Part shown: one piece after another, positions 19,088-60,059 of the stretch
Numbering within the stretch: the first letter of the stretch is position 1
How the letters are laid out: each line of letters opens with the position of its first letter
Assembly: GCA_946699065.1 (NCBI GenBank)
Contig: CAMPDV010002059.1
Span: forward strand, 1 to 64,000
Direction: 5' to 3'
DNA: 64,000 nucleotides
Source of the DNA: Loxodes magnus
Taxonomy: Eukaryota; Ciliophora; Karyorelictea; Loxodida; Loxodidae
Made by a program: the position numbers and the translations under genes
The notes under the pieces: model-generated
What the model was told of the DNA's origin: nothing
What the model saw: only the letters and a program-made list of their open reading frames with translations
The model's database searches: none

Positions 19088-20150
19088 TCAGTTTGCAACT
19101 TTCCACCTTCTCACAGTTCTGTCCATATCTCCAGATACCAACCATCTACCGTCATTACTTAATGCTATAGACATTATTTCACTTGCATGCCCTTATAAAG
19201 TCTATATACACTCACCCGTATTAAAGTTTCATATCTTAATCGTTTAATCCCATGATCCAGAAAATATAACACTCGAATCAGTACTAATCTAAATACTTGA
19301 TACACCATTTGTATGCCCTTCCAGAGTTCGAATCAGCTAACCAGTTGAGAAATCCCATATCTTTATCGTGTTATCTCCACTTCCGGAGACAATTCATTTC
19401 ATGTCATTTGTTAAAGCTAAAGATTAAATTGATCTCGAATGACCCGAAAAAGTTTTCGTACAACTTCCAGTCTGGAAATCCCACATCTTTATCGTGCTAT
19501 CAGAACTTCCGGAGACAATTCATTTCATGTCACTTGCTAAAGCTACTGAGATAATTGATTTCGAATTATCTGACAAAGTACTCGTACAGCTTCCAGTTTG
19601 GAAATCCCAAATCTTTATCGTGTTATCTCCACTTCCGGAGACAATTCATTTCATGTCACTTGCTAAAGCTACAGATTAAACTGAAGACGAATGATCCGAC
19701 AAAGTTTTCGTACAACTTCCAGTCTGGAAATCCCACATCTTTATCGTGCTATCACAACTTCCGGAGACAATCCATCTCTGGTCACTTGTTAAAGCTACAG
19801 ATTAAACTTCATACAAATGACCCGTCAAAGTTCTCGTACAACTTCCAGTTTGGAAATCCCAAATCTTTATCGTGTTATCGAAACTTCCGGAGACAATCCA
19901 TCTCTGGTCACTTGTTAAAGCTACAGAGGTAACTAAATCCTAATGACCCGTTAATACTTAGTCTAAATATTAAAGAATTACCTTGAGATTAGTCGTAGGA
20001 AATTTTATTAACCAGCTTTTAAAAGCAGAGGTTGGGCAGAATTTCGTATTTTAATAGAAGAAGGGGCATTGTTCCAAGGGACTAATTTCGTTGCTTTAAT
20101 ATTTTTCTTAAAAAAATACTTTTAGTAAATTGTGCTTCTTTTTTCTCCAT
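19088..20150 (-). CDS. WD40-repeat protein, 347 aa, one 19-nt intron
   Basis: Start ATG 20150 ([16 protein letters not shown]), stop TGA 19088-19090. Removing a 19-nt GT-AG intron at 19963-19981 (GTAATTCTTTAATATTTAG) leaves 1044 nt, 348 codons, and joins the N-terminus to the repeats in frame (SQDQVLTGH). At least seven WD40 blades follow, with [14 protein letters not shown] and GH-WD spacing, forming a beta-propeller scaffold for protein interaction. Within the tandem blades the Trp of WIVSGS is TGG in some and TGA in others, and IKIWNF also uses TGA. The central blades are nearly identical, so recent internal duplication is likely. Plus-strand ORFs at 19297-19932 are shadows. Confidence 0.92.
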
Positions 20151-24629: not shown

Positions 24630-25255
24630 AAATCTAAATTATTGAATCATTGATAATTATTAAACTTACACTAAAAGTAAAAAACTTTAGCATAATTCTT
24701 TAAAATGGCTACTTCAAAACAGACTTATGATTTGTGGCTAAATATAATTATAAAAATTAAATTTAGTTAAATTAAAAAATATAGAAAAATATAAATTTTA
24801 AGAAAATAATATCTTAAAATAGCAAAAAAGATTAAAATTAAAAATATCAAAAAATTAAAGACTTAACACTAAAAATATTTGGATAAATGTATAATAAAAC
24901 TTAAAGAATAGTTAAAGCTAAATTTAAGAATGGTAATTAAACTATCTTTAAGTATTTAAAAATATCAATGAATTCTTAAAAATTATTTATTCCTATTTTA
25001 TATGAAAAATTTATAAATAAAACTAAAAAGAGAAAGAATATAAATCTAGTAATTTGAATACTTTATAAAATGCTAAATTAAGCTTAAATTTTACGTTAGA
25101 TATAAATTTAATAAAATATAAGTAGATTATCAAATAAATATTATTAATACTTAAAAAGATTTACTATATAAAGTAGATTAAAATTACATTAAATATCCTT
25201 AATTTATATCTATCTCAGTAATATTAATTTTATATTTACTAACATTCTAAAAATA
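24630..25255. other. AT-rich spacer, contains end of left-only segment
   Basis: No gene seen. At about 25097 the sequence becomes homologous to the right arm again; TTAGAT occurs at both ends of the 10.6-kb left-only segment. Confidence 0.5.
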
Positions 25256-25265
25256 TTTAATAAAA

Positions 25266-25338
25266 CGCCGACTAAGGGACTTGAACCCTTGACCACCAGC
25301 TTAAAAGGCTGGCGCTCTAACGACTGAGCTAAACTGGC
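25266..25338 (-). tRNA. tRNA-Lys(TTT)
   Basis: Anticodon arm CCAGC-CTTTTAA-GCTGG (anticodon TTT), D-arm GCTCAGTCGTTAGAGC, and T-arm AAGGG-TTCAAGT-CCCTT. The acceptor GCCAGTT/AGTCGGC has one A-C mismatch. Identical in the right arm. Confidence 0.9.
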
Positions 25339-25398
25339 TTATTTAATATATTATATGTTTATTAAATATTATCATTATAGCAAATAAAATTATAAAAA

Positions 25399-25471
25399 TG
25401 GAGAACACGGGTATCGATCCCGTTGCCTCTCGCATGCAAAGCGAGCGCTCTTCCATTTGAGCTAGTTCCCC
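25399..25471 (-). tRNA. tRNA-Ala(TGC)
   Basis: Acceptor GGGGAAC/GTTCTCC includes the G3-U70 wobble that identifies tRNA-Ala. The anticodon arm is CTCGC-TTTGCAT-GCGAG (anticodon TGC). Three copies are in the window. Confidence 0.95.
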
Positions 25472-25724
25472 TTTATATGAATGCATTTCCTTTTCTTAAA
25501 TACATAAAATAGTGATTAAAAATAATTTTTATTATATATTAATAAAAAATTATAATTTATTTATCAATATTTTAATTATTTTTTATAAGTTTTAAAATAT
25601 TTCATTATTAGATATTTATATGTAATTGTAAAATCGATATTATGATTGTGACTCTCTAAGATAATAAAATGATTATATTATTTTTATTATTATCCTTTTT
25701 TATTATATATAATTATTTATATCG

Positions 25725-26030
25725 CCATAGTTGTTCGAAGGTGAACAACAAGGGACGGCTTCATCATAGGTTGGGAAGCTAAGTACTCATAATCGACTTT
25801 ATGTCTTCCTCTGCTTTGGCTTGGCCTCGAGACATATGTTAATTCAACCTTCGACACTGGCTTACTTTAGTTTTTAATTCTGGAAATAAAAGGAAATTAT
25901 TTTTGCGAGCTTCATCAGAGGTGAAGAATTTAAGTACCCATAATTGACACATTTCGTCCTCTGCTTTGGTGATGCAATGAGACGCAACCCTGCCATGTCC
26001 TTGAACCTCCAACAAGTATTAAAGATTACG
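25725..26030. ncRNA. Two-module element, candidate structured RNA, copy 1
   Basis: Markedly GC-richer than its surroundings and conserved in three copies (also 47300-47600 and 54650-54950), always next to tRNA-Ala/tRNA-Lys. It begins with a hairpin GTTGTTCGAAGGTGAACAAC. Two diverged modules of about 80 nt follow, sharing GCTTCATCA, AAGTAC-CATAAT-GAC and TCCTCTGCTTTGG. CCTCTGC/CAGAGG complementarity in each module suggests stems. Polarity is unknown. It is not 5S, SRP, U1-U6 or a tRNA as far as I can tell. A protein reading exists on the minus strand (MAGLRLIASPKQR) but is not shared by both modules. Confidence 0.45.
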
Positions 26031-26039
26031 AGTATTCTG

Positions 26040-26200
26040 AAATTATATCAGTATTGAATATTTTTATCAGTACTGAATAATTATATCAGTATTGAACAAG
26101 ATTTATCAGTATCTGATAATTTTATCAGTAAAAAACATTCTTGTCAGTATGAAACATTTTTTAAAGAGCTGCGCACCAACGAGAGTGCTATGCGCTTTAT
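26040..26200. repeat. ATCAGTA short repeats and terminal hairpin, copy 1
   Basis: Six or seven copies of TATCAGTAT(TGAA) about 18-25 nt apart, then GCGCACC...TATGCGC, which can fold into a hairpin. It follows the two-module element in all three copies. Confidence 0.6.
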
Positions 26201-26696
26201 AATCAAATTTATTTATTTATCATCAATTTTATTTTCCTTTTTTACTTTTATAATAGTTTTGACTAGTAAAGAGAGAAATATCGCAATCTAAGCAACTTTC
26301 CCATTAATTTGTTTATTAATATTTAAATTTTTTGTCTCTACAATAAGCATCTTATATTAATAGTATCATATTATAATTATGCATTTTCAAATACTTCTAA
26401 TTAATTTGGATGAACAGGTAAACCAATAATTTCTCTATAATATATTAAAAGAACAATGTAATAATAAAATTTATAATACTTCTTTAATAAAGTCATTTCC
26501 TTCTTTATTCTAAACATATTAGGTTTATTAGATAAATTAGATTTATTGATTAACTATTATGAAATGTATGAGATATTATTTAAATCTAAATATAGTAGTT
26601 TAGATAATACTTATTAATATATTGCTTAGAATGCTTTTATTATTTTATTTACCTTCAATTAAAATAATCCATTTTGCACTAAAATATACAAATCTC

Positions 26697-29556
26697 TCAT
26701 TTTTTATGCTCTCTTCTCATGCTTTTTACATCAGTTATTTGAAACAGTTATAAGAGTGTCAACTTTATTTGTCTATGAACTTTTATAGCAAACTTTTCTA
26801 TTTTATTTTAGAAATATTCAATTCTTTTACTTCCCAATATAAATGCTAGTTAGTATGGAGGAATTAAATGCTAAGAAACTCCATCATAATTATTCTAAAT
26901 TTAAAAGCTTACACTATAGTTAAATCTTCCATTTCCTAAAAATATATCCTTTCCAATGCTATTCTTTTCTACTTCCTCTCTACCTACATTCATATAAGTA
27001 AGCAACACTATTAACTATATGCAACTTCCTAATATTTTTAAATTTTTACTATTTTCTTATCCTGTTTTTATTAACTTGCACTTGGTAGGTTAGAGGCAAA
27101 CTTTTCTTACTAGCAACTTAGTGAGTATGAAGAATGATACTATCATATAATATTATTTTCTGTATAAGGAATTACATTTTTTATTAAGAAGGACACTAAC
27201 CTGATCTACATTTTTCGAAGTTAGTAGTAAATTACTTGAATTCTGCAGAGTCAAAATCATACATTACTTATCTAATAAAATAAAGAGTTTCTAAAGGCAT
27301 GTAACCAAGATTTCTTTTTAAGTTTTGAATAGATGTTTCTAATACTTTAGTTAATAATAGTATTTACTCTTATTACTCTTATGAATGATTATAATCAAGT
27401 TAATTTTATATCCATTTGTTATAGATTTATTATCTTTCCTTTTGCTACTGTATCTCTTCATTTTATTCATAATATCAACTTTCATCTACTAGAATATCAA
27501 ATCTATATTTTTCTTTCTTAAGAACTTTTATTCATACTTTATAGTTCTACTTTATAATTCATTTTAAGCATCTTTTTTAAGCAAATAAGTAAGCCTATTT
27601 AATATCCTCTTAAGTTCCATTTAATAGTTTTATCATTTTAACTAAGTTTTTATTACTCATCAGTATTTTATTTTTATATTCTCTAATTTCATTTTCTAAC
27701 TATATTTTCTTTTAAGAACTCTATCAGCTTTTATTTTTATTTTCTTCTTACTGTTAGAATTCTTTTATAATAATGCTTAGTTTTTGTATTTCTTTGAAGG
27801 ATTCTAAGTTTTTTTCAAAGGACTTTAGTTTTAAATATGGTATTTCTTCTTCTTCTACTTTTTTAAATATTTCGAAACTAGGAGTTACTATCTCGTCTTG
27901 GTCAATGTATTCAACTTTCAGCACATTATCTTTGATTTATATGCTTGAATTTCCTTTTATTTCAATTACATTTAAGCTGTTTAAACTTCCACTTATCTAA
28001 CAACTTTGATTTGTTAAGTTGTTAGACTAATTAACATTTCCTTCATTATTCAATAGATTTTAGCTGGAAATATTGTTAATCTTGTTAATAAAAGGATTGG
28101 AATGTTTTATTTTAATGAGATCTGGACTTTTTGCTTATATTGATAAAGCAGCTTTTATTTTCTATCTTTTGACTAAAATTTTAGATATTAAAGTTCCTGG
28201 CTCTTCTACTTTAGCTTAATTTTAATTTTCTATATTAATGGAATTATTTTCCTTTTGTTTTTAGGATAGATTAAAAAATCTATTATTCAATGATGTTTTC
28301 TTTTTGTGAATGATTGCTTATGGTCTATTCTAATCCCTTTGATCTGATTTTCTATTTTATGATAATTGCTTAATAATTCTTGATTTAATATCCTTGTAAC
28401 TAATTTTTTGTTTGCCTTTTATATACAAAATTTACTTAGAAGTTAGATATTAACTTTTGATATGCTAAATATCAATTATTGGGCTTAAAAATTAAAATTC
28501 GTCAGAATAGTTTGGATCGTTAGTTGAAGTATAATTTAATAAAGGTTAATTATTTTAACTTCTAAATTTGATGTTTGTATCAGATCTTATTTTATTTTTT
28601 CTAATTTCAGTTTTCCTACTTTAAGCTTAAGTATTAAAATTTCTTAAATTTCATTATGTTAATGTCATATTAAGATTTTATTCTTCCAAAGATGAAGAAG
28701 TTGGAGAAATCAGCTCAGAATCTGATATTTAGTCTTTATCATTGGTGACCCTTATCCCGTTTTAGTTTTAACTTTATTTAACTTATTTTTTTATTTAACC
28801 TATATTAGAAATTTATTTTAATGAACTTTCTTTCTATTTTAATTAATAGTTTTCAAATTATTAGTTCTAACTTCATTCTTATGTATTTAAATCTTCATCA
28901 CATTATGTTATTTTTATTTTGATTGGAGCTTCTTACGTAGATTATAGCAGCAGCTTTCTACTTTTATTTATTTTTTCTTTTTGAAGTTTTAATTACTTAT
29001 TGTCTTTTAAATTCTAAGATTCTACAGGCTTTAAGTGAAAACTTTAATTATTTCGCTTATTTTTGCTTATATCTGGCGATTTTTATTTTTTAAGAATGTT
29101 TGTCTCATTAGGGTTAATTTAAAGTGTCCAAGGATTATTTTAGGTCTATTATTCTTAAGAAAAAGTGTCTTAGTATTTGATGGGACTTTGCTTTTAATAA
29201 TTTAAGTTTATTGACTAAAATAGGTTTTATCTATCTTAATTTTTCTTTATAGAAGAGATAGAAAACTAGCTTAATATCATAGGACTATCCGTTAAGCCTT
29301 GATTATTATCTTGTTTTAGTTATTCTCTCTTTCTTATTGGAGATTATTAATTCCTAGAGCAGATTTAAAATGTTGAATTATTTTATAATATAACTTATTC
29401 CTTTTAACTATTTTAAGATTTTCCTACTATAGATTTCATTGCTTTCTTAATAGAAGGAGATTTTGTCACTCTGGCAAGTTTCTTAAGATTCCTATCTGAA
29501 TGTTTATATTAAATAGGAGTTAGAATAATTGCATTCAGATTACTTGAGGAATTCAT
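26697..29556 (-). CDS. Large coiled-coil protein, 946 aa, 19-nt intron (left copy)
   Basis: Mirror of 51109-53968, with no indels between the copies (coordinates sum to 80665 at both ends). ATG 29556, TGA 26697-26699, intron 26969-26987. See the right copy for domains. The plus-strand ORF at 27773 is the shadow of this gene. Confidence 0.85.
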
Positions 29557-30123
29557 TTATTTAAGGGTAATTTAAAGTGATTTAATGATAATTTTAAGTT
29601 AGTAAAATAACTTGGTATCAATTTACTATATACTGTCTCTTATTTGTAAAATAAACTAAAGAATCTTTATAAAAAGGTAACTTTAAACTTAGATAAATAT
29701 GCTTAACTTTTTAATTTAGTGGCCTTATTATTTTTATATTAGCGATACTTTAAAATTTCTAAAAAATCACAATAGATATATTAGGGACTTTAATTAAAAT
29801 AAAAAAGTATTTAGTCTCAAATAAGATAATAAGGAGTTTTAACTAATTTTAGTAGATATAAACATATGTATTTTTATAAATATTTGATTTAGATAGTATT
29901 TCTTTATAAACTATTTTAAATAATTTAGATTATTTTTAAGAAATTTTATTATCTTTTATTTCAAAAATATGTCAATATACTTGAGTAATCAGTCGTAAAA
30001 GAGTTATTAGAATTTCTAGATTCGAAATAAACGTACATTATATTTACATAGCTACATTTAAAAATATTGAGAATAAAACAAATAAAAAGTAATTATTTAA
30101 GAAAGATGAGTTATAAAGAATAA

Positions 30124-30227: not shown

Positions 30228-30300
30228 ATCGGGACTTGAACTCGGGACTTTCGAGTAACGATAAAAGCATTAAGTATAAAGACTATCATGATTCAACTTT
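30228..30300 (-). pseudogene. tRNA-like relic
   Basis: The minus strand ends with GAGTTCAAGTCCCGA, a T-arm-like element, but the other arms cannot be paired convincingly. Confidence 0.3.
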
Positions 30301-30330
30301 CATCAAGTGCTAGGAAGTAGTAGCGTTAAT

Positions 30331-30358
30331 AAAAAGCAAGAGCAATCTCTTGCTTTTT
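30331..30358. other. Perfect short hairpin
   Basis: AAAAAGCAAGAG, a CAAT loop, and CTCTTGCTTTTT form a perfect 12-bp hairpin. It lies between the tRNA-Lys(CTT) region and gag-like copy C. Role unknown; a structured transcript end is possible. Confidence 0.5.
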
Positions 30359-31237
30359 CTCCTGTTGTAGGTAGAAGTTAACCCTTCCAAAATATATTTT
30401 GAAAGATTTCTATCTTCGGAAGCTTCATCGTAATTACTGGTTTTAGAATAGATTATTAGATTTTTTCTTTCAGCAAAATTTATGCTTAATTAGGAATGCT
30501 TCAATTTCCATAAAAGTTTTGAGTTTTAATATGAAGCTGAGGTAGTAATTTTTTAGCAAGCAAGATCTGCTTCTAGCTCGATAATAAGCTTGACAAACTA
30601 AAGAGATACTAAGCTTCGAATTAAAAGAAGAAGAACGATGCTTTGTATGCTAAGACAGCTAGTTAATAGGTGAAATTTCGACATTACCTTGTATGGCTGT
30701 TTCCAGTATGATTTCATAATGACTTTTATTATATATTATATATAAAATGGCTTCTAAGAAATAACAGAACTTTGAACAAAACATTTAAACAGGAAAATTC
30801 TCTATAAAATAAAAAAGTGAAATAATTACAATGAGTGAAAGTGAGAAATATGATTGATATGACGAACATTAACCACTTGGAAATCCAGAACTAAAAAAAC
30901 TTCCGACACAAACTCAAATAGAAATATTATCTAAGTCATTAAAAGAGTTTATGTTTAAAAATAGATACCTCACTGATAAAGTAGAAAAATTAGAAAAACT
31001 AATAACGTCTTTACTTGAGAAACAATATTAATAATCATAAGAAATAGAAGACAAACTGGAACAAAGAATTCTTTAAATTTAATAATAAATTCAGGTAACG
31101 CCATTTTCGATTTAACAGAATTAATCAGATTCTATGGAAATAAAAAATGAAGCCTCAAATTAAAATAAGCAGTAAACGTTTATTTAAAATAAGTAGTAAA
31201 TTTAAATTAAATAAGTGTTACAGGAATATATATAAAA

Positions 31238-32599
31238 ATGGAGTCTTAAAATCTTGTTCCCGGCTTTTTCTTGAGCAAAGAAGAGAAAAAGCAGGCATAA
31301 AAAAAGTATCAAGAGTCTTCTTCTCCTCACTTACAAAACTAATAAAGAACCTAATAACTATAATAAACACCTCCTAAAGTAATAAAAAGAAAGGAATCTA
31401 ATATAATAACAGGAAAAGAACTTCCATCAAAGATAATTAAAAAGGAAATCAATATTTAGCAGTTAGTATTTGAAATATCCAATCTCTAGGAAGAGATTAA
31501 AGTGCTTAAGTAGGAAAATTAAGAACTAAGAAACTTATTATCGCTTGGATAAGATAACTTAGAGATTAGAATTATTAATTAAGAAAGGGAACTCAAAGCA
31601 TATTGGAACATTTAAACTGAACATAGATAAGAAACAGCAAGGCTTGGAAATATCGTATAAAAACAAGAGTCGGAGTTTATTAAGCAAAAGAATATTAGCA
31701 CAAACATAACTAATTAGACAAATTAGATGGAGATAGAATAAAAAGAGGTTATAAATCGAAAATCAATCAGATAAGTAAGGAAGAAATGCTACTACTGTAA
31801 GAGTAAGTGACATTTGTACAAGAATTGCTAAAAATTTTAGAATTTCAAGAAAAAATTTTGGCGTAAAGAATAAGAAAAATACTAGAGGCTCTATTACAAC
31901 TAGCATGGAGATATTTACAGAAGAAAATGATGTGAAGTACCTTTTGAAATAATAAGAACAAGAAATCAAAGAAACTGAGAAGACCTTAGTGAAGATAATT
32001 TCATTAGAAAGTCAAGAATGATGAGAAGTGTTGTTGATAAAACAACTTATTTTAAACGGTGTCCAGATTGGCACTGTTGAACATTTTAATTTCATTATTA
32101 TTATAAGTGTTACAGGAATAATAGTTTAAAAGAAGAATAAAATGCTACGTGTGCAATAAATAAAACCAATGAAAATACTGCTACTAACTAAGCGAAATTT
32201 AAAGAAAGAATAAATAAGATATTTTTAGAAAACTATTTAGGATATATCCAACATAAAGCGGAAAAATTTATAGAAAAAAATTCTTTAATTCAAATCTTAA
32301 TCCTTGGATAAATGATTAGGAACGCTACATGCAAGACTAAAACTATTCAGAATATTAAAGGATGGTGCGCTAATGAAGTGCTACACCGCCTAACTAAGCC
32401 TAGTAGAAATTCAAGACAAACTAATGGAGACAAGCTGATAGAATAGGTCAGATGGCTGACTACTAAGGCTTTAACAAAGCTTTTTAACTTTTAACTTTTT
32501 TATAAGGAAATAAATAATTAAAAAAACATAAAATAGATTCTACACTTACTTCTGCTTAAATTATCTACTTTTTATTAATTATTCCTCTCATTAATGTGA
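31238..32599 (+). CDS. Gag-like protein with coiled coil and CCHC knuckle, copy C, 453 aa
   Basis: The best preserved member of the family. From ATG 31238 one frame gives a Gln/Ser/Pro-rich start and a coiled coil (NLQEEIKVLKQENQELRNLL). The perfect knuckle CYYCKSKWHLYKNC at 31787 (Cx2Cx4Hx4C) has its Trp encoded by TGA. The C-terminus ends GWCANEVLHRLTKPSRNSR. TGA 32597-32599 is taken as stop; at least three other TGA codons are internal. An upstream in-frame block from ATG 30747 (MASKKQQNFEQ, then EKYDWYDEHQPLGNPELKK) is protein-like but in another frame from 31238, so a longer, intron-containing gene or a frameshift is possible. Zinc knuckles bind nucleic acid; no reverse transcriptase accompanies it. 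Confidence 0.65.
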
Positions 32600-33342: not shown

Positions 33343-36300
33343 ATGGCTGAATCTAACAGGTGCAGCTCATGCTTAGTTCATTTCGACTCTTAAATACGAA
33401 TTCCCGTAACCCTTCCTTGTGGACATCAAGTATGCCAAATTTGTATTCTTGAAGAATACTTAAAAGAGGGTTCTAATCAGTGCCCAAAAAGAAACTGTAG
33501 AAAAGTTTCATCCAATGATCCAAAAAATTGAATAAGCTAAAACAACTAATCAAGTGAAAGTAAATAAGAATATAAATAACTTCATCTTGAAGAAACTAAA
33601 GTTGAGCTATCTTACTAGCAAAAACCTAAATTAATAAAAGTCAAAATTATAACCTTAAATAAAGAAGAAATAAACTTAACAGTAGATGAAGGAGAAACAA
33701 TTGAATAGCTTAAATAAAAAGTAGAAAGACTAGAAGGAATTGACACTGATTTTTATGAACTTTAACTTAATGGATGATTTAAAAAATTAGATAGTTAGCA
33801 TAGAATCATTAAAATGGAGAATAAAGATGAAGTTTAGCTAAACTTAGAGTTAAAGGATTGTAATTAATATAAATTTAAGGAGGTGAGAGAATAAGATTTA
33901 GAAGGTAAGCATTAAAAATAGAAAGTAATTAATAAAAATTAGTTTTCAAGATACTATATGAATAATATGGTAAATAGTATAATAATAGAATGTAAATAAT
34001 AATAAAAATTAGAAAGTATTAAATAATCAAAAATAGGTGAAAGTAAGAAAATTAAAAAAGGCTAAAATGACTTCGAAATAAGTTAGAAATAAATGTATAG
34101 GAGGTAAGTTTTAAAAAAGTGTGTAATATATTTATCAAAAGTGAGTAATACTTTAAAAAATAGAAAGTAATAAATAAATCTTAAGAATGTAATAAAATAA
34201 ATAAGATTGTAAGAATACTAAGAAAGGGAGTAAAAATTAAATATAGAATGTAAAAAATAAAGAAGATTGTAAAATAATTATGCTAAGTTGGTAATTTAGC
34301 AAATACAGAAAGTAAATTATTTAATATATAGCAAGTAAAAAAACAAATAAAGGAGGTAAAAATTAAAATAAGATGGTATTTCTATTTAAAATAGAATGCA
34401 AAATATTTTAAATATTTATAGATGGTAAGATATTTTAAATATTTATAGGGAGTAAGATATTTTAAATATTTATAGTGAGTAAGATATTTTAAATATTTAT
34501 AGAGGGTAAAATATTTTAAATATTTATAGGTTGTAAGATATTTTAAATATTTATAGATTGTAAGATATTTTAAATATTTATAGATGGTAAGATATTTTAA
34601 ATATTTATAGAGTGTAAGATATTTTAAATATTTAAAGGGAGTAAGATATTTTAAATATTTAAAGGGAGTAAGATATTTAAAATATTTATAGATTGTAAGA
34701 TTTTTTAAATATTTAAAGGGAGTAAGATATTTAAAATATTTATAGATTGTAAGATTTTTTAAATATTTAAAGGGAGTAAGATATTTAAAATATTTATAGA
34801 TTGTAAGATATTTTAAATATTTAAAGGGAGTAGGATGTTTTAAATATTTATAGATTGTAAGATGTTTTAAATATTTATAGAGTGTAAGATATTTCTAATA
34901 TTTATAGAGAGTAAGATGTTTTAAATATTTATAGAGAGTAAGATATTTTAAATATTTATAGGGAGTAAGATATTTTAAATATTTATAGATGGTAAGATAT
35001 TTTAAATATTTATAGATTGTAAGATATTTTAAATTTAAAGGGTGTAAGATATTTTAAATATTTATAGATAGTAAGATGTTTTAAATATTTATAGAATGTA
35101 AGATATTTTAAATATTTATAGAGAGTAAGATATTTTAAATATTTATAGAGAGTAAGATATTTTAAATATTTAAAGGGAGTAAGATGTTTTAAATATTTAT
35201 AGATGGTAAAATATTTTAAATATTTATAGATTGTAAGATATATTAAATATTTATAGTGAGTAAGATATTTTAAATATTTATAGAGGGTAAGATATTTTAA
35301 ATATTTATAGAGGGTAAGATATTTTAAATATTTATAGAGGGTAAAATATTTTAAATATTTATAGTGAGTAAGATATTTTAAATATTTATAGATGGTAAGA
35401 TATTTTAAATATTTATAGGGAGTAAGATATTTTAAATATTTAAAGGGAGTAAGATATTTTAAATATTTATAGATTGTAAGATATTTTAAATATTTATAGA
35501 TGGTAAGATATTTTAAATATTTAAAGGGAGTAAGATATTTAAAATATTTATAGATTGTAGGATTTTTTAAATATTTAAAGGGAGTAAGATATTTAAAATA
35601 TTTATAGATTGTAAGATATTTTAAATATTTAAAGGGAGTAGGATGTTTTAAATATTTATAGATTGTAAGATGTTTTAAATATTTATAGAGTGTAAGATAT
35701 TTCTAATATTTATAGAGAGTAAGATGTTTTAAATATTTATAGAGAGTAAGATATTTTAAATATTTATAGGGAGTAAGATATTTTAAATATTTATAGATGG
35801 TAAGATATTTTAAATATTTATAGATTGTAAGATATTTTAAATTTAAAGGGTGTAAGATATTTTAAATATTTATAGATAGTAAGATGTTTTAAATATTTAT
35901 AGAATGTAAGATATTTTAAATATTTATAGAGAGTAAGATATTTTAAATATTTATAGAGAGTAAGATATTTTAAATATTTAAAGGGAGTAAGATGTTTTAA
36001 ATATTTATAGATGGTAAAATATTTTAAATATTTATAGATTGTAAGATATATTAAATATTTATAGTGAGTAAGATATTTTAAATATTTATAGAGGGTAAGA
36101 TATTTTAAATATTTATAGAGGGTAAGATATTTTAAATATTTATAGAGGGTAAAATATTTTAAATATTTATAGTGAGTAAGATATTTTAAATATTTATAGA
36201 TGGTAAGATATTTTAAATATTTATAGGGAGTAAGATATTTTAAATATTTAAAGGGAGTAAGATATTTTAAATATTTATAGATTGTAAGATATTTTAAATA

Positions 36301-39300
36301 TTTATAGATGGTAAGATATTTTAAATATTTATAGATGGTAAGATATTTTAAATATTTATAGGTTGTAAGATATTTAAAATATTTATAGATTGTAAGATAT
36401 TTTAAATATTTAAAGGGAGTAAGATATTTAAAATATTTATAGATTGTAGGATTTTTTAAATATTTAAAGGGAGTAAGATATTTAAAATATTTATAGATTG
36501 TAAGATATTTTAAATATTTAAAGGGAGTAGGATGTTTTAAATATTTATAGATTGTAAGATGTTTTAAATATTTATAGAGTGTAAGATATTTCTAATATTT
36601 ATAGAGAGTAAGATGTTTTAAATATTTATAGGGAGTAAGATATTTTAAATATTTATAGATGGTAAGATATTTTAAATATTTATAGATTGTAAGATATTTT
36701 AAATTTAAAGGGTGTAAGATATTTTAAATTTAAAGGGTGTAAGATATTTTAAATATTTATAGAATGTAAGATATTTTAAATATTTATAGAGAGTAAGATA
36801 TTTTAAATATTTATAGAGAGTAAGATATTTTAAATATTTAAAGGGAGTAAGATGTTTTAAATATTTATAGATGGTAAAATATTTTAAATATTTATAGATT
36901 GTAAGATATATTAAATATTTATAGTGAGTAAGATATTTTAAATATTTATAGAGAGTAAGATATTTTAAATATTTAAAGGGAGTAAGATGTTTTAAATATT
37001 TATAGATGGTAAAATATTTTAAATATTTATAGATTGTAGGATTTTTTAAATATTTAAAGGGAGTAAGATATTTAAAATATTTATAGATTGTAAGATATTT
37101 TAAATATTTAAAGGGAGTAGGATGTTTTAAATATTTATAGATTGTAAGATGTTTTAAATATTTATAGAGAGTAAGATATTTTAAATATTTATAGGGAGTA
37201 AGATATTTTAAATATTTATAGATGGTAAGATATTTTAAATATTTATAGATTGTAAGATATTTTAAATTTAAAGGGTGTAAGATATTTTAAATATTTATAG
37301 ATAGTAAGATGTTTTAAATATTTATAGAATGTAAGATATTTTAAATATTTATAGAGAGTAAGATATTTTAAATATTTATAGAGAGTAAGATATTTTAAAT
37401 ATTTAAAGGGAGTAAGATGTTTAAAATATTTATAGATTGTAAGATATTTTAAATATTTAAAGGGAGTAAGATATTTAAAATATTTATAGATTGTAGGATT
37501 TTTTAAATATTTAAAGGGAGTAAGATATTTAAAATATTTATAGATTGTAAGATATTTTAAATATTTAAAGGGAGTAGGATGTTTTAAATATTTATAGATT
37601 GTAAGATGTTTTAAATATTTATAGAGAGTAAGATATTTTAAATATTTATAGGGAGTAAGATATTTTAAATATTTATAGATGGTAAGATATTTTAAATATT
37701 TATAGATTGTAAGATATTTTAAATTTAAAGGGTGTAAGATATTTTAAATATTTATAGATAGTAAGATGTTTTAAATATTTATAGAATGTAAGATATTTTA
37801 AATATTTATAGAGAGTAAGATATTTTAAATATTTATAGATTGTAGGATTTTTTAAATATTTAAAGGGAGTAAGATATTTAAAATATTTATAGATTGTAAG
37901 ATATTTTAAATATTTAAAGGGAGTAGGATGTTTTAAATATTTATAGATTGTAAGATGTTTTAAATATTTATAGAGTGTAAGATATTTCTAATATTTATAG
38001 AGAGTAAGATGTTTTAAATATTTATAGAGAGTAAGATATTTTAAATATTTATAGGGAGTAAGATATTTTAAATATTTATAGATGGTAAGATATTTTAAAT
38101 ATTTATAGATTGTAAGATATTTTAAATTTAAAGGGTGTAAGATATTTTAAATATTTATAGATAGTAAGATGTTTTAAATATTTATAGAATGTAAGATATT
38201 TTAAATATTTATAGAGAGTAAGATATTTTAAATATTTATAGAGAGTAAGATATTTTAAATATTTAAAGGGAGTAAGATGTTTTAAATATTTATAGATGGT
38301 AAAATATTTTAAATATTTATAGATTGTAAGATATATTAAATATTTATAGTGAGTAAGATATTTTAAATATTTATAGAGGGTAAGATATTTTAAATATTTA
38401 TAGAGGGTAAGATATTTTAAATATTTACAGAGGGTAAAATATTTTAAATATTTATAGTGAGTAAGATATTTTAAATATTTATAGATGGTAAGATATTTTA
38501 AATATTTATAGGGAGTAAGATATTTTAAATATTTAAAGGGAGTAAGATATTTTAAATATTTATAGATTGTAAGATATTTTAAATATTTATAGATGGTAAG
38601 ATATTTTAAATATTTAAAGGGAGTAAGATATTTAAAATATTTATAGGGAGTAAGATATTTTAAATATTTATAGAGGGTAAAATATTTTAAATATTTATAG
38701 GTTGTAAGATATTTTAAATATTTATAGGTTGTAAGATATTTTAAATATTTATAGATTGTAAGATATTTTAAATATTTATAGATGGTAAGATATTTTAAAT
38801 ATTTAAAGGGAGTAAGATATTTAAAATATTTATAGATTGTAGGATTTTTTAAATATTTAAAGGGAGTAAGATATTTAAAATATTTATAGATTGTAAGATA
38901 TTTTAAATATTTAAAGGGAGTAGGATGTTTTAAATATTTATAGATTGTAAGATGTTTTAAATATTTATAGAGTGTAAGATATTTCTAATATTTATAGAGA
39001 GTAAGATGTTTTAAATATTTATAGGGAGTAAGATATTTTAAATATTTATAGATGGTAAGATATTTTAAATATTTATAGATTGTAAGATATTTTAAATTTA
39101 AAGGGTGTAAGATATTTTAAATATTTATAGATAGTAAGATGTTTTAAATATTTATAGAATGTAAGATATTTTAAATATTTATAGAGAGTAAGATATTTTA
39201 AATATTTATAGAGAGTAAGATATTTTAAATATTTAAAGGGAGTAAGATGTTTTAAATATTTATAGATGGTAAAATATTTTAAATATTTATAGATTGTAAG

Positions 39301-41098
39301 ATATTTTAAATATTTATAGTGAGTAAGATATTTTAAATATTTATAGAGGGTAAGATATTTTAAATATTTATAGAGGGTAAGATATTTTAAATATTTACAG
39401 AGGGTAAAATATTTTAAATATTTATAGTGAGTAAGATATTTTAAATATTTATAGATGGTAAGATATTTTAAATATTTATAGGGAGTAAGATATTTTAAAT
39501 ATTTAAAGGGAGTAAGATATTTTAAATATTTATAGATTGTAAGATATTTTAAATATTTATAGAGTGTAAGATATTTTAAATATTTATAGATGGTAAGATA
39601 TTTTAAATATTTATAGATGGTAAGATATTTTAAATATTTATAGAGGGTGAAATATTTTAAATATTTAAAGGGAGTAAAATATTTTAAATATTTATAGGTT
39701 GTAAGATATTTTAAATATTTATAGATTGTAAGATATTTTAAATATTTATAGGCTGTAAGATATTTTAAATATTTAAAGGGAGTAAGATATTTAAAATATT
39801 TATAGATTGTAGGATTTTTTAAATATTTAAAGGGAGTAAGATATTTAAAATATTTATAGATTGTAAGATATTTTAAATATTTAAAGGGAGTAGGATGTTT
39901 TAAATATTTATAGATTGTAAGATGTTTTAAATATTTATAGAGTGTAAGATATTTCTAATATTTATAGAGAGTAAGATGTTTTAAATATTTATAGAGAGTA
40001 AGATATTTTAAATATTTATAGGGAGTAAGATATTTTAAATATTTATAGATGGTAAGATATTTTAAATATTTATAGATTGTAAGATATTTTAAATTTAAAG
40101 GGTGTAAGATATTTTAAATATTTATAGATAGTAAGATGTTTTAAATATTTATAGAATGTAAGATATTTTAAATATTTATAGAGAGTAAGATATTTTAAAT
40201 ATTTATAGAGAGTAAGATATTTTAAACATCTATAGATTGTAAGATGTTTTAAATATTTATAGGGAGTAAGATATTTTAAATATTTAAAGGGAGTAAGATA
40301 TTTCTAATATTTATAGATTTTAAGATATTTCTAATATTTATAGATGGTAAGATATTTTAAATATTTATAGATAGTAAGATATTTTTAAGTATTTATAGGG
40401 AGTAAGATATTTTAAATATTTATAGAGCGTGAAATATTTTAAATATTTATAGAGAGTAAGATATTTTAAATATTTTTAGAGAGTAAGATATTTTAAATAT
40501 ATTTAGGGAGTAAGATATTTTAAATATTTATAGGGAGTAAGATGTTTTAAATATTTATAGAGAGTAAGATATTTTAAATATTTATAGATAGTAAGATATT
40601 TTAAATATTTATAGAATGCAAGATAGTTTTTATTCGCAGTTTGTATTTGAAAACTATTATAGCTAGTATTTTTATTATTATAAGAGGGTATTAAATTACC
40701 TCAGGCGGTAAGAATCTAAATCAGGTATCTTTTTAATTTTTGATTGTAAGAAATAATTATAAGATGGTTTTGATTTTATTGAAGCTAGTATTTGCTTATA
40801 TGAGCTTGTATTATTTAACCTTAGTTAGTAATAAAATTATATAGAATGTAATATTATTAATATTTATAGGGGGTAATGATTGATTTGAAAAGAAAGTAAT
40901 GCCTAATATAATTGATTAAAGAATGTTATAGTAATGATTAATTTTAGATTATTTATACTAGGTAGTTATTTTTCTACTTTAGGATGTAAAGAATTTAATG
41001 ATAAGTAAGTTTTTGATTATAGAGGGTAATTTTTGATATAAGCGGAGACGGAAATAGCATTTGACAGCTTTAAATATTTATCTTAAATTAATGTTTGA
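33343..41098 (+). CDS. RING-ubiquitin-like protein gene with single-codon exons and about 270 micro-introns
   Basis: Exon 1 (33343-33859, 172 codons) encodes a RING finger (CSSC...PCGHQVCQIC...CPKRNC, residues 7-50). Residues about 90-165 form a ubiquitin-like domain (ETIEQLKQKVERLEGI, FYELQLNGWFKKL, whose Trp is TGA). Such proteins are usually E3 ubiquitin ligases. From 33860 the sequence resolves into GT-AG segments of 16-21 nt separated by exons of 3 nt (a few of 6, 21 or 27). All introns are phase 1. Joined exons read EEIFKILYEQYEQSES and RVLKKYWKYFETRDEY. A 230-unit array of the same design follows (34398-40617). After it come more non-repetitive introns of 14-26 nt, one possibly about 31 nt, and a last exon reading AETEIAFDSFKYLSQINV before TGA 41096-41098. 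The spliced protein would be roughly 480-500 aa. Two border introns are GC-AG. The first codon made across intron 1 is TGA, so a short 172-aa product is also possible. Splicing itself is inferred. Confidence 0.7.
34398..40640 (+). repeat. 27-bp minisatellite made of intron-like units
   Basis: About 230 tandem units. Each is GTAAGATATT...ATATTTATAG (24 nt) followed by a variable triplet (ATG, GGA, ATT, AGA, AGG, TGA, AGT, AAT, ATA, GGT, GTT). Variant units keep GT (or GC) at the start and AG at the end (TAG, AAG or CAG); I saw one unit with a lost donor, near 40315. Some units are 22 or 25 nt plus a triplet. The triplets recur in a higher-order repeat of about 30 units (about 808 bp), with deletions. 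Period and variants were read by eye. Confidence 0.95.
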
Positions 41099-41193
41099 AT
41101 ATTAATTAATTTTTAATTTAGATACTTTAGTTAATTTAAAGTTACTAAACATATTAGCATTATTTAAGCTCTTTACTAATATTCTTGCTTTTT

Positions 41194-47600: not shown

Positions 47601-47624
47601 TATTAAAGATTACGAGTATTCTAA

Positions 47625-47790
47625 AATTATATCAGTATTGAACATTTTTATCAGTACTGAATAATTATGCCAGTATTGAACAAGATTTATCAGTATCTGA
47701 TAATTTTATCAGTAACAAACATTCTTGTCAGTATGAAACATTTTTTTTTAAGGAGTTGCGCACCAACGAGAGTGCTACGCGCTCTATAAT
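47625..47790. repeat. ATCAGTA short repeats and hairpin, copy 2
   Basis: Same arrangement as 26040-26200, ending GCGCACC...TACGCGC. Confidence 0.6.
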
Positions 47791-49689: not shown

Positions 49690-50898
49690 ATGCTCTATTA
49701 ATTATTATGGATAATATGAATTTAAAAATCTGATTCTTTTAGAAGTGATGAAAATAATGAATAGCCTTTAATAGAGAATGATCTTATGGATGTAAATAAA
49801 GATTTAATTTAAATATTAGTTATAAGTTTATTTACTTGTATCATTATGATGATTCACTGCTTTTCTCTAATAAAGATAAATATAATATCTATACATTAAG
49901 TATTTAATTTAATATATATTCCAATTATTTATTAATATATAGCTTTCAAATAAAGTAACCTTTAAATTACATTAGTATATCTTTTATATTATGCATCCTA
50001 GCAAATATCTAGTTATTTATTTACCATTATAACTATAATACTAATTACTTTACAATTCATTAGGCTATCAACGCTATTTATAAATCAACTAATTAACTCT
50101 ATAAGTAGTATTCACCAACTCTTATTTATTTTAATATATCTAAACAGATTCGAAAGGATATCATTTATAATAAATTAAGACTTAGCAAGGAGATGGAGTT
50201 TAATAAGCATATAACTAGCTACTATAAGTAAATAGCCAGGATATAATTTAATCAATAATAATCAAAAGATAAATACCAAATAGAAGATATACAATTATTC
50301 CTATCAATCAGTTACCAAATAATTCTATTATTTTACCCAAATAAACACCTCTATGTAAAAAACTAACTATTAATTCTATCTCACTTCATTAAAGAATTTT
50401 ATATCATTAATTTAAATCTCTTAGGAAATAAGTAGGATATTAAGAATTTTAATACTCTATAATAATAAACATTTAATTAGAAAAGTGCTAATATTTATAC
50501 ACTAATTTAGATAAACTTAAAGGAAATTAGAATTCAAATTATCAAATTTCATTTATAGAAGATCATACCAAGAAAAACTAATAAACATATATATAATTAC
50601 TAATTTAAAAAAGAGATCTATCGATTCAAACATAACTAAAAGAGAGAATTATAAAAGTAGTATATAGATAATAGCTAAATATAGAAGAAAAAGATTTTTA
50701 TTATTATAAAAGATAATAAAATTTCTTAAAAATAATCTAAATTATTTAAAATAGTTTATAAAGAAATACTATCTAAATCAAATATTTATAAAAATACATA
50801 TGTTTATATCTACTAAAATTAGTTAAAACTCCTTATTATCTTATTTGAGACTAAATACTTTTTTATTTTAATTAAAGTCCCTAATATATCTATTGTGA
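49690..50898 (+). CDS. Putative multi-pass membrane protein
   Basis: From ATG 49690 the frame reads a charged start (DSFRSDENNEQPLIENDLMD), hydrophobic segments (ILVISLFTCIIMMIHCF, LFTIITIILITLQFI, LLFILIYL) and a soluble C-terminal half. The first in-frame TGA not read through is at 50896. The last 65 codons lie inside the right arm of the young inverted repeat and are AT-rich, so the original 3' end may have been replaced when the repeat formed. The layout resembles the protein at 15543. Confidence 0.45.
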
Positions 50899-51108
50899 TT
50901 TTTTAGAAATTTTAAAGTATCGCTAATATAAAAATAATAAGGCCACTAAATTAAAAAGTTAAGCATATTTATCTAAGTTTAAAGTTACCTTTTTATAAAG
51001 ATTCTTTAGTTTATTTTACAAATAAGAGACAGTATATAGTAAATTGATACCAAGTTATTTTACTAACTTAAAATTATCATTAAATCACTTTAAATTACCC
51101 TTAAATAA

Positions 51109-53968
51109 ATGAATTCCTCAAGTAATCTGAATGCAATTATTCTAACTCCTATTTAATATAAACATTCAGATAGGAATCTTAAGAAACTTGCCAGAGTGAC
51201 AAAATCTCCTTCTATTAAGAAAGCAATGAAATCTATAGTAGGAAAATCTTAAAATAGTTAAAAGGAATAAGTTATATTATAAAATAATTCAACATTTTAA
51301 ATCTGCTCTAGGAATTAATAATCTCCAATAAGAAAGAGAGAATAACTAAAACAAGATAATAATCAAGGCTTAACGGATAGTCCTATGATATTAAGCTAGT
51401 TTTCTATCTCTTCTATAAAGAAAAATTAAGATAGACAAAACCTATTTTAGTCAATAAACTTAAATTATTAAAAGCAAAGTCCCATCAAATACTAAGACAC
51501 TTTTTCTTAAGAATAATAGACCTAAAATAATCCTTGGACACTTTAAATTAACCCTAATGAGACAAACATTCTTAAAAAATAAAAATCGCCAGATATAAGC
51601 AAAAATAAGCGAAATAATTAAAGTTTTCACTTAAAGCCTGTAGAATCTTAGAATTTAAAAGACAATAAGTAATTAAAACTTCAAAAAGAAAAAATAAATA
51701 AAAGTAGAAAGCTGCTGCTATAATCTACGTAAGAAGCTCCAATCAAAATAAAAATAACATAATGTGATGAAGATTTAAATACATAAGAATGAAGTTAGAA
51801 CTAATAATTTGAAAACTATTAATTAAAATAGAAAGAAAGTTCATTAAAATAAATTTCTAATATAGGTTAAATAAAAAAATAAGTTACATAAAGTTAAAAC
51901 TAAAACGGGATAAGGGTCACCAATGATAAAGACTAAATATCAGATTCTGAGCTGATTTCTCCAACTTCTTCATCTTTGGAAGAATAAAATCTTAATATGA
52001 CATTAACATAATGAAATTTAAGAAATTTTAATACTTAAGCTTAAAGTAGGAAAACTGAAATTAGAAAAAATAAAATAAGATCTGATACAAACATCAAATT
52101 TAGAAGTTAAAATAATTAACCTTTATTAAATTATACTTCAACTAACGATCCAAACTATTCTGACGAATTTTAATTTTTAAGCCCAATAATTGATATTTAG
52201 CATATCAAAAGTTAATATCTAACTTCTAAGTAAATTTTGTATATAAAAGGCAAACAAAAAATTAGTTACAAGGATATTAAATCAAGAATTATTAAGCAAT
52301 TATCATAAAATAGAAAATCAGATCAAAGGGATTAGAATAGACCATAAGCAATCATTCACAAAAAGAAAACATCATTGAATAATAGATTTTTTAATCTATC
52401 CTAAAAACAAAAGGAAAATAATTCCATTAATATAGAAAATTAAAATTAAGCTAAAGTAGAAGAGCCAGGAACTTTAATATCTAAAATTTTAGTCAAAAGA
52501 TAGAAAATAAAAGCTGCTTTATCAATATAAGCAAAAAGTCCAGATCTCATTAAAATAAAACATTCCAATCCTTTTATTAACAAGATTAACAATATTTCCA
52601 GCTAAAATCTATTGAATAATGAAGGAAATGTTAATTAGTCTAACAACTTAACAAATCAAAGTTGTTAGATAAGTGGAAGTTTAAACAGCTTAAATGTAAT
52701 TGAAATAAAAGGAAATTCAAGCATATAAATCAAAGATAATGTGCTGAAAGTTGAATACATTGACCAAGACGAGATAGTAACTCCTAGTTTCGAAATATTT
52801 AAAAAAGTAGAAGAAGAAGAAATACCATATTTAAAACTAAAGTCTTTTGAAAAAAACTTAGAATCCTTCAAAGAAATACAAAAACTAAGCATTATTATAA
52901 AAGAATTCTAACAGTAAGAAGAAAATAAAAATAAAAGCTGATAGAGTTCTTAAAAGAAAATATAGTTAGAAAATGAAATTAGAGAATATAAAAATAAAAT
53001 ACTGATGAGTAATAAAAACTTAGTTAAAATGATAAAACTATTAAATGGAACTTAAGAGGATATTAAATAGGCTTACTTATTTGCTTAAAAAAGATGCTTA
53101 AAATGAATTATAAAGTAGAACTATAAAGTATGAATAAAAGTTCTTAAGAAAGAAAAATATAGATTTGATATTCTAGTAGATGAAAGTTGATATTATGAAT
53201 AAAATGAAGAGATACAGTAGCAAAAGGAAAGATAATAAATCTATAACAAATGGATATAAAATTAACTTGATTATAATCATTCATAAGAGTAATAAGAGTA
53301 AATACTATTATTAACTAAAGTATTAGAAACATCTATTCAAAACTTAAAAAGAAATCTTGGTTACATGCCTTTAGAAACTCTTTATTTTATTAGATAAGTA
53401 ATGTATGATTTTGACTCTGCAGAATTCAAGTAATTTACTACTAACTTCGAAAAATGTAGATCAGGTTAGTGTCCTTCTTAATAAAAAATGTAATTCCTTA
53501 TACAGAAAATAATATTATATGATAGTATCATTCTTCATACTCACTAAGTTGCTAGTAAGAAAAGTTTGCCTCTAACCTACCAAGTGCAAGTTAATAAAAA
53601 CAGGATAAGAAAATAGTAAAAATTTAAAAATATTAGGAAGTTGCATATAGTTAATAGTGTTGCTTACTTATATGAATGTAGGTAGAGAGGAAGTAGAAAA
53701 GAATAGCATTGGAAAGGATATATTTTTAGGAAATGGAAGATTTAACTATAGTGTAAGCTTTTAAATTTAGAATAATTATGATGGAGTTTCTTAGCATTTA
53801 ATTCCTCCATACTAACTAGCATTTATATTGGGAAGTAAAAGAATTGAATATTTCTAAAATAAAATAGAAAAGTTTGCTATAAAAGTTCATAGACAAATAA
53901 AGTTGACACTCTTATAACTGTTTCAAATAACTGATGTAAAAAGCATGAGAAGAGAGCATAAAAAATGA
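51109..53968 (+). CDS. Large coiled-coil protein, 946 aa, one 19-nt intron (right copy)
   Basis: ATG 51109 (MNSSSNLNAIILTPIQYKHS) to TGA 53966-53968. Removing the 19-nt intron GTAGGTAGAGAGGAAGTAG at 53678-53696 leaves 2841 nt, 947 codons, and joins VNSVAYLYEQ to KNSIGKDIFLGNGRFNYS. Residues 1-450 are Ser/Gln/Asn-rich and look disordered (LISPTSSSLEEQNLN). From about 500 the protein is helical and probably coiled (FEIFKKVEEEEIPYLKLKSF, QLENEIREYKNKIL). A KRCLKWIIKQNYKVW stretch resembles an IQ-type helix, but this is weak. It ends with MRREHKK. A cytoskeletal or scaffold role is a guess from composition only. Confidence 0.85.
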
Positions 53969-54524
53969 GAGATTTGTATATTTTAGTGCAAAATGGATTA
54001 TTTTAATTGAAGGTAAATAAAATAATAAAAGCATTCTAAGCAATATATTAATAAGTATTATCTAAACTACTATATTTAGATTTAAATAATATCTCATACA
54101 TTTCATAATAGTTAATCAATAAATCTAATTTATCTAATAAACCTAATATGTTTAGAATAAAGAAGGAAATGACTTTATTAAAGAAGTATTATAAATTTTA
54201 TTATTACATTGTTCTTTTAATATATTATAGAGAAATTATTGGTTTACCTGTTCATCCAAATTAATTAGAAGTATTTGAAAATGCATAATTATAATATGAT
54301 ACTATTAATATAAGATGCTTATTGTAGAGACAAAAAATTTAAATATTAATAAACAAATTAATGGGAAAGTTGCTTAGATTGCGATATTTCTCTCTTTACT
54401 AGTCAAAACTATTATAAAAGTAAAAAAGGAAAATAAAATTGATGATAAATAAATAAATTTGATTATAAAGCGCATAGCACTCTCGTTGGTGCGCAGCTCT
54501 TTAAAAAATGTTTCATACTGACAA

Positions 54525-54645
54525 GAATGTTTTTTACTGATAAAATTATCAGATACTGATAAATCTTGTTCAATACTGATATAATTATTCAGTACTGATA
54601 AAAATATTCAATACTGATATAATTTCAGAATACTCGTAATCTTTA
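54525..54645. repeat. ATCAGTA short repeats, copy 3
   Basis: Reverse-complement copy of 26040-26150; the hairpin lies at about 54465-54500. Confidence 0.6.
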
Positions 54646-54649
54646 ATAC

Positions 54650-54950
54650 TTGTTGGAGGTTCAAGGACATGGCAGGGTTGCGTCTCATTGCATCACCAAA
54701 GCAGAGGACGAAATGTGTCAATTATGGGTACTTAAATTCTTCACCTCTGATGAAGCTCGCAAAAATAATTTCCTTTTATTTCCAGAATTAAAAACTAAAG
54801 TAAGCCAGTGTCGAAGGTTGAATTAACATATGTCTCGAGGCCAAGCCAAAGCAGAGGAAGACATAAAGTCGATTATGAGTACTTAGCTTCCCAACCTATG
54901 ATGAAGCCGTCCCTTGTTGTTCACCTTCGAACAACTATGGCGATATAAAT
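54650..54950. ncRNA. Two-module element, candidate structured RNA, copy 3
   Basis: Reverse-complement copy of 25725-26030, essentially identical. See that entry. Confidence 0.45.
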
Positions 54951-55193
54951 AATTATATATAATAAAAAAGGATAATAATAAAAATAATATAATCATTTTA
55001 TTATCTTAGAGAGTCACAATCATAATATCGATTTTACAATTACATATAAATATCTAATAATGAAATATTTTAAAACTTATAAAAAATAATTAAAATATTG
55101 ATAAATAAATTATAATTTTTTATTAATATATAATAAAAATTATTTTTAATCACTATTTTATGTATTTAAGAAAAGGAAATGCATGAATATAAA

Positions 55194-55266
55194 GGGGAAC
55201 TAGCTCAAATGGAAGAGCGCTCGCTTTGCATGCGAGAGGCAACGGGATCGATACCCGTGTTCTCCA
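55194..55266 (+). tRNA. tRNA-Ala(TGC)
   Basis: Intact cloverleaf with G3-U70, anticodon TGC; mirror of 25399. Confidence 0.95.
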
Positions 55267-55326
55267 TTTTTATAATTTTATTTGCTATAATGATAATATT
55301 TAATAAACATATAATATATTAAATAA

Positions 55327-55399
55327 GCCAGTTTAGCTCAGTCGTTAGAGCGCCAGCCTTTTAAGCTGGTGGTCAAGGGTTCAAGTCCCTTAGTCGGCG
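55327..55399 (+). tRNA. tRNA-Lys(TTT)
   Basis: Mirror of 25266, anticodon TTT. Confidence 0.9.
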
Positions 55400-56176: not shown

Positions 56177-56249
56177 GCCTCTATGGCTCAGTTGGCAGAG
56201 CATTCGCTTAGTAAGCGAAAGGTCCGTGGTTCGAGCCCGCGTGGAGGCT
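56177..56249 (+). tRNA. tRNA-Thr(AGT)
   Basis: Mirror of 13804; intact, followed by TTTTTT. Confidence 0.95.
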
Positions 56250-56362
56250 TTTTTATTAGATAAAATAAGAAAAAAATTAATAAAATTAAGGGAAATTAAT
56301 TAAAAAAAGGAAATATTATTAATGTAAAAAATTTAAACTAAGAAAAATAATTAATTAATATC

Positions 56363-58124: not shown

Positions 58125-58336
58125 ACTTTTTATTAATAAAGCTAGTAAAGTTGCATATGACTGAAAGAGGCAAATTAAGAGATATGATATACATTAAAAG
58201 ATGAAATAACAATATACACATTTTATTAGTAATTTGCAAATAAATTTAATTAAACAAGAAGAAAGTATTATACATAAGATATTTGAAAAGTTTATAAAAT
58301 AAAGTTTAAGTAATAATTGAGATATGCTTATAAACA

Positions 58337-60034: not shown

Positions 60035-60059
60035 CTATATTTTATTTTTATTAACCATA

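Follow-up and report, generated by a model that had tools for sequence, protein, structure and literature searches.

The window analyzed here is a 64-kb stretch of the Loxodes magnus genome (contig CAMPDV010002059.1), to which all coordinates refer; L-numbers (L009, L010 and so on) denote other loci of the same assembly. At 33343–41098 it contains a gene whose C-terminal tail appears to be spelled by long runs of one-codon exons, lying between spliceosomal introns of 16–26 nt that are all in phase 1. This reading is supported because the 3-nt exon length is exact, the splice sites are conserved, the exons outlast their introns, and the spliced tails resemble each other. Judged from these sequence comparisons, the locus is very probably a spliced, protein-coding gene with RING and ubiquitin-like (UBL) domains, whose tail appears to grow through tandem duplication of an intron together with a codon.

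Gene architecture and the 3-nt spacing

Loxodes magnus is described as using genetic code 27, in which TAA and TAG encode glutamine and TGA is either tryptophan or stop, and its introns in RNA-seq data have a mean of 19.3 nt and a mode of 17 nt, with 93% no longer than 25 nt (PMC11441545). Under this code, the segment 33343–33904 is open, its 15 in-frame TAA, TAG and TGA codons included. Exon 1 (33343–33859), translated with table 27, encodes a RING finger at residues 7–49 (zf-C3HC4; 26.6 bits against a Pfam cut-off of 21) and a UBL domain at residues 100–169 (27.2 bits against a cut-off of 25.4), and ends in phase 1. The chain of small introns starts directly behind it at 33860 and not after 33905.

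As the preliminary description had claimed, non-repetitive introns flank a central satellite on both sides. The 5' chain (33860–34397), delimited by splice parsing and copy alignment, comprises 23 introns of 16–21 nt with unrelated bodies, and its exons are 3 nt long except for those of 27 nt (33943–33969), 6 nt (34037–34042) and 21 nt (34061–34081). It is followed by the intron-plus-codon satellite with 27-nt units (34398–40607; Tandem Repeats Finder (TRF) and parse) and by the 3' chain (40608–41042), which has introns of 17–26 nt and mostly 3-nt exons and encodes a conserved GIFLIFDYATFKWE stretch. Within this stretch, every codon of YATFKWE is split by an intron in the window copy. The last exon (41043–41098), on the plus strand like the rest of the gene, ends in TGA.

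A phase-aware parse of 33343–41110 yielded about 269 introns; of the 268 internal exons, 260 have a length of exactly 3 nt. The earlier claim of 3-nt exons between tiny GT-AG introns thus holds, although not without exceptions: the remaining eight internal exons measure 6, 9, 12, 21, 21, 27, 30 and 57 nt, and two introns, at 34398 and 40608, are GC-AG. As L009 has a 19-nt intron at the place of the 57-nt exon, this exon very probably contains one more intron, of 21 nt. By eye, the donor of a single satellite unit near 40325 is gone. All 269 window introns, and 126 of 130 in L068, were assigned to phase 1, counts that are partly built in because the parser charges for phase changes. By arithmetic on this parse, the predicted spliced message is about 1.5 kb, in agreement with the 1.4–1.5 kb expected earlier.

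The 3-nt spacing is genuine and exceeds chance expectation by a wide margin. In a model-free histogram, the distance from AG to the next GTA or GTG peaks at 3 nt, with 19 occurrences against 1.9 expected in 33860–34420 and 12 against 1.0 expected in 40630–41050; the highest counts in 300 Markov resamples were 7 and 4, respectively. At L010, which carries about 98 almost wholly non-repetitive introns in about 2.4 kb, 88 such distances were found against 9.9 expected. Parsed without an exon-length term, this locus yielded 97 internal exons, of which 82 had exactly 3 nt, compared with a mean of 1.9 in 50 resamples. The parser took its splice-site weights from L010 introns that have 3-nt exons on either side, and these weights are not fully independent of the pattern; the distance histogram is independent of this training.

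Across the assembly (705,730,643 bases in 7,843 contigs), two successive introns around a 3-nt exon were matched 41,173 times, against 1,024 for the reversed pattern, and the corresponding counts for 4-nt exons were 2,948 and 940; the satellite share of the 41,173 matches is probably large. Eleven other loci picked for a chance 3-nt gap or two (L001–L008 and L011–L013) contained no chain of three or more donors, and the window outside the gene gave a single spurious chain of three (21342). When 15 minus-strand loci were inadvertently parsed on the wrong strand, which gave an unplanned control, each showed 0 or 1 exon of 3 nt, against 41–54 in the other 15 loci.

One might suppose that the region is a satellite whose old, decayed units lie in a 3' untranslated region or in one long intron, with GT-AG ends and 3-nt spacing arising as by-products of the repeat. 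Its middle is indeed a tandem repeat of 231 copies according to TRF, and part of the flanking units could go back to ancient copies of it. However, L010 shows equal spacing over introns that are almost wholly non-repetitive, so the pattern is not a satellite artefact, and the array of L067 has the same design with unrelated introns. As detailed below, introns change in length among copies but none of the nineteen 3-nt exons of the 5' chain does, exons outlive introns, and spliced tails align as protein. We consider such a by-product very improbable.

Conservation among the copies of the gene

The gene belongs to a large family that was not part of the preliminary description, which also did not include the unrelated introns of other members or the hypervariable satellite codons. 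The exon-1 protein matched at least 151 places at E ≤ 0.001, those listed having E values of 4.9e-72 or better; this is a lower bound, as 150 of 2,909 first-look candidates were scored. An exact 29-mer from exon 1 occurs 118 times in the genome, and haplotypes left unresolved in the assembly may account for part of the exon-1 copies. The seven chain clusters examined (L009, L010, L067, L068, L069, L070 and L071) were picked from the top of the genome search results, not at random, and all follow a RING and/or UBL exon. By eye from translations, L067 has RING, coiled-coil-like and UBL parts, L070 has the start of a RING, and in L069 the UBL alone was recognized; L071 was recognized by DNA similarity. 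Pairwise dN/dS values of 0.32–0.74 (26 pairs printed of 55, from 11 representatives) indicate that exon 1 is under purifying selection.

A mobile-element origin of the gene copies was considered; upstream blocks are shared, and no convincing terminal inverted repeats were seen. Upstream of the gene, a 1.76-kb segment (30731–32494) is absent from 15 other copies (L009 and L030–L043), in which the counterpart of 30253–30730 directly abuts that of 32495. This segment is possibly a recent insertion.

The region from the ATG to the satellite was aligned for 43 distinct copies, obtained from 55 family sequences after collapsing identical ones. L015 (the same place as the window) and L066 (without most of the 5' chain) were left out, and L010 and L067–L071 are not in this set. 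The nineteen 3-nt exons of the 5' chain were 3 nt long in all 815 instances present, being missing in two cases, and the 21-nt and 27-nt exons were constant in all 43 copies. Among 986 instances of the 23 introns, 107 departed from the modal length, and in 106 of these the difference was no multiple of three. The fixed exon lengths beside shifting intron lengths show that frame-shifting changes are tolerated in introns and, with one exception given below, not in exons.

These length changes also bear on whether the array is simply translated unspliced. The code would permit such read-through, with TAA and TAG as glutamine and TGA able to encode tryptophan, and the 27-nt unit is divisible by three. 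However, 106 of the 107 intron length changes would shift the frame, and introns of 22 and 23 nt are present inside arrays. The chance that the array is read through in this way is close to negligible.

The splice sites are likewise conserved. Of the 986 instances, 980 have a GT or GC donor and 981 an AG acceptor, and parsimony changes per site, counted at G/C sites, were 0.21 for donors and 0.09 for acceptors against 1.56 for intron bodies. Over the 43 copies the 5'-chain introns span 15–27 nt, with GT-AG ends, in line with short introns of the Loxodes type. Alternatively, the segments might be excised from DNA, in another nucleus or stage, in the manner of internal eliminated sequences (IESs) rather than from RNA; the host is a ciliate, and excision of short segments is generally common in ciliates. 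IES boundaries are TA. The segments here are instead bounded by GT and AG, have lengths matching the published RNA-seq introns of Loxodes magnus, and are present in an assembly taken to be macronuclear (MAC) because its size matches the 706 Mbp of the published Loxodes magnus MAC assembly. Classical IESs are described as not detected for that published assembly (PMC11441545). DNA excision is scarcely credible as the explanation.

Comparison with a diverged copy separates exons from introns. Exon 1 of L068 differs from that of the window with a synonymous proportion (pS) of 0.451 and a nonsynonymous proportion (pN) of 0.231. The 24 paired intron bodies are nearly randomized, with an identity of 0.665 against 0.616 when shuffled, although two of the 24 pairs are still 0.90 identical. 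By contrast, 50 of 60 positions are identical in the twenty paired 3-nt exons, where random pairing gives 24.0 of 60.

This difference also weighs on the idea that the spliceosome mostly skips the 3-nt exons and joins distant sites, the frame being kept by phase 1 throughout. Every window intron is parsed in one phase, and 3-nt exons are in general hard for a spliceosome to define. However, conservation of the 3-nt exons of the 5' chain, without that of their introns, needs frequent inclusion. Predominant skipping is therefore unlikely, whereas skipping inside the satellite may be compatible with the conservation of the 5' chain.

The spliced tails of diverged copies, represented by hand-chosen fragments, align as protein. 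The alignment of WEEIFKILYEQYEQSESQNDFEIRVLKKYWKYFETRDE with WKEIFKEMRLLYEKNENLDEIKKRALKKFWRYFEIRDE scored 111, where the best of 1,000 shuffles reached 58, and that of the GIFLIFDYATFKWE segment with GIFLRFDYIYFKWE scored 65 against a best of 53. Together with the fixed 3-nt lengths and the conserved splice sites and exons, these alignments support the earlier proposal that joining in phase 1 would give one protein. The clean C-terminus proposed along with it applies to the window copy, where the TGA is present at 41096–41098. Its position is not conserved among copies: by eye, the in-frame TGA lies 18 nt further downstream in L044, L045 and L046, and the frame of L009 continues.

Two copies, L070 and L071, have an exon-1 frame that looks broken by eye, and their chains are broken as well, with exons of 3 nt making up 24 of 52 and 10 of 15, respectively. 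In these RING-UBL copies the one-codon chain thus decays along with exon 1, and they can serve as pseudogene controls. We count their decayed chains in favor of a spliced coding gene.

Several observations weigh against this reading. The 6-nt exon keeps its length in 42 of 43 copies and has 4 nt in one. In recent copies, the 3-nt exons change faster than the intron bodies (0.74–1.0 against 0.51 changes per site), partly because they hold more G and C, and amino-acid constraint in these copies accordingly looks weak. The L010 tail is not significantly similar to the tails of the window or of L068, as 179 and 725 of 1,000 shuffles, respectively, reach the score. Codon-usage scoring of the 3-nt exon runs at the three offsets gave no clear choice of phase 1 (window, −0.115/−0.241/−0.164, offset 2 being the frame of the gene; L068, −0.159/−0.307/−0.069; L010, −0.363/−0.223/−0.217). 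Moreover, L029 shows 4-nt exons, L066 is without most of the 5' chain, and the parses of L009 and L010 contain phase breaks, suggesting that some family copies may be dead.

The satellite and the surroundings of the gene

The satellite unit of 27 nt consists of a 24-nt intron (consensus GTAAGATATTTTAAATATTTATAG; some introns have 22 nt) and one variable 3-nt exon. Of the 229 internal exons parsed in the window satellite, 227 have this exon length of 3 nt. Introns with a length divisible by three account for 220 of 230 there (the 24-nt introns), against 226 of 986 instances in the 5' chain. Across 219 window units, most intron positions are 0–3% variable and five are 7–21% variable, whereas the three exon positions vary by 37, 41 and 52%. 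The intron consensus is identical in the seven copies compared, while their codons differ.

The same contrast was found in 52 arrays of at least 15 units, where median diversity was 0.564 at exon sites and 0.041 in the intron body, with the exon value higher in all 52. These are 52 of 54 arrays (L054 and L063 fell below 15 units) and represent 50 places, as L030/L044 and L031/L045 are the same places twice; many are near-identical copies, so that the arrays are not independent. Diversity was taken from 24-nt units alone, with the splice-site bases fixed by the pattern, and units with more than 7 (window set) or more than 8 (52-array set) mismatches from the consensus were excluded, which somewhat lowers the intron diversity. 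The array parses of L044, L045 and L046 ran past the gene, blurring their exon-length rows.

The peptide encoded by the satellite is 81.5% polar in the frame of the gene, compared with 59.3% and 59.6% in the other frames, some joined codons being artificial where the filter dropped units. We do not use this as proof, since the excess could also stem from a preference for purines behind AG. In L035, 29 of 36 units carry AAT, which is glutamine in the frame of the gene.

Other arrays have one design with unrelated introns. L067 contains a different satellite that we read as a 28-nt intron plus one codon. The parser favored a division into 16-nt introns and 15-nt exons; the unit of a 28-nt intron and a 3-nt exon is preferred here, not proven, because mainly the NNN varies. 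L010 has a short array at 6192–6255 with an 18-nt intron plus AGA. With the 24-nt intron of the window, these make three arrays with unrelated introns, and intron-plus-codon arrays thus seem to arise repeatedly, from different introns. L068, in which 118 of 129 internal exons are 3 nt long and the introns (16–26 nt) have diverged bodies, looks like an aged array.

The window contains two large inverted duplications, pairing 6045–14477 with 55577–64000 (96.9% over 8.5 kb) and 25083–29959 with 50706–55585 (99.7% over 4.9 kb), so that the gene sits between inverted arms. Twelve tRNA genes were found by Rfam in 9996–58409, and several form pairs in keeping with the duplicated blocks. A 126-nt tandem repeat (42 codons) occupies 19341–19950; by its period it is perhaps WD40-like, which is a guess, and one open reading frame there had no Pfam match above the cut-off. 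A repeat of 38–39 nt with AGTAT-containing units occurs at 26031–26130, 47615–47737 and 54515–54634. Pfam searches of 18 other open reading frames in the window gave no gathering-level match.

Proposed mechanism and relation to known systems

We propose that tandem duplication of an intron and its adjacent codon lengthens the tail. Each duplication would add 20–30 nt of DNA and one amino acid, keeping the frame and bringing ready-made splice sites. Repeated duplication would build an array, and with age the intron bodies would drift while codons are kept or diversified, leaving non-repetitive chains. A 24-nt intron failing to splice would also keep the frame; if it loses a splice site, a 30-nt in-frame exon is expected, and the parses contain one such exon in the window and two in L068. 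Because all window introns are in phase 1, any donor joined to any later acceptor remains in frame. Two spliceosomes cannot occupy the same 3-nt exon simultaneously, and splicing is therefore probably sequential.

Our best guess from the predicted protein is that the tail acts as a linker, polar and variable, that joins a charged, helix-like segment to the conserved GIFLIFDYATFKWE segment. More tentatively, the satellite may be a diversity generator, a recombining array in which near-constant introns and hypervariable codons would place differing tails on a predicted RING-UBL ligase; we consider this possible but less likely than not.

Individual elements of this structure have precedents. Schistosome micro-exon genes (MEGs) have exons of 3–81 bp and long introns of up to 5 kbp (PMC10526429). 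They share with the present gene many very small exons, down to 3 nt, and symmetric small exons are likewise a feature of it (260 of 268 internal exons). In contrast to the long introns of MEGs, those here are about 16–26 nt, most exons are 3 nt, they number up to hundreds per gene, and the array is partly satellite; we draw an analogy to MEGs and do not class the gene among them. Isolated ultra-short exons of 1–15 nt are described as spliced elsewhere, including a 3-bp exon of Drosophila homothorax, a 1-nt exon in Arabidopsis, and plant microexons (PMC7392893, PMC4674806, PMC8831610). As described there, these are single or few per gene, whereas here hundreds follow in series. The tiny introns, about 19 nt, and the table 27 code are like those described for karyorelict and heterotrich ciliates (PMC11441545). 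The subject there is tiny introns and not one-codon exon runs as here, and the main text of that paper makes no mention of microexon, ubiquitin, RING finger or satellite.

The zf-C3HC4-type RING and UBL domain liken the predicted protein to RING E3 ubiquitin ligases (TRIM25/TRIM21/TRAF6-like RING). It differs from known ones in its gene structure, and neither the spliced L068 protein nor the exon-1 protein had a match outside this genome at E ≤ 0.001 in the protein collection searched. In intron gain by tandem duplication and in introners, new introns come from copying a stretch of DNA in which splice sites are already present. The copied unit here, by comparison, is a whole intron plus one codon, present up to about 230 times in tandem. 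In the parts of the open-access literature searched, no gene of one-codon exon runs and no intron-plus-codon satellite unit is described. Tiny introns in the clade, single microexons and schistosome MEGs are already known.

If the splicing is true, these would be by far the longest one-codon exon runs known to us. Genes of this kind may escape standard RNA-seq mapping and gene prediction; an annotation miss is possible in the published Loxodes case because its introns were taken from HISAT2 mapping with read-support thresholds (PMC11441545). If true, the gene would provide a test of how the spliceosome acts on 3-nt exons and of the need for sequential splicing, and of whether a protein can be extended through satellite DNA by single amino acids in turn. 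Should the satellite indeed generate diversity, one gene could yield very many in-frame isoforms, and the tails of this family would evolve as single codons are shuffled and added in the form of spliceable DNA cassettes.

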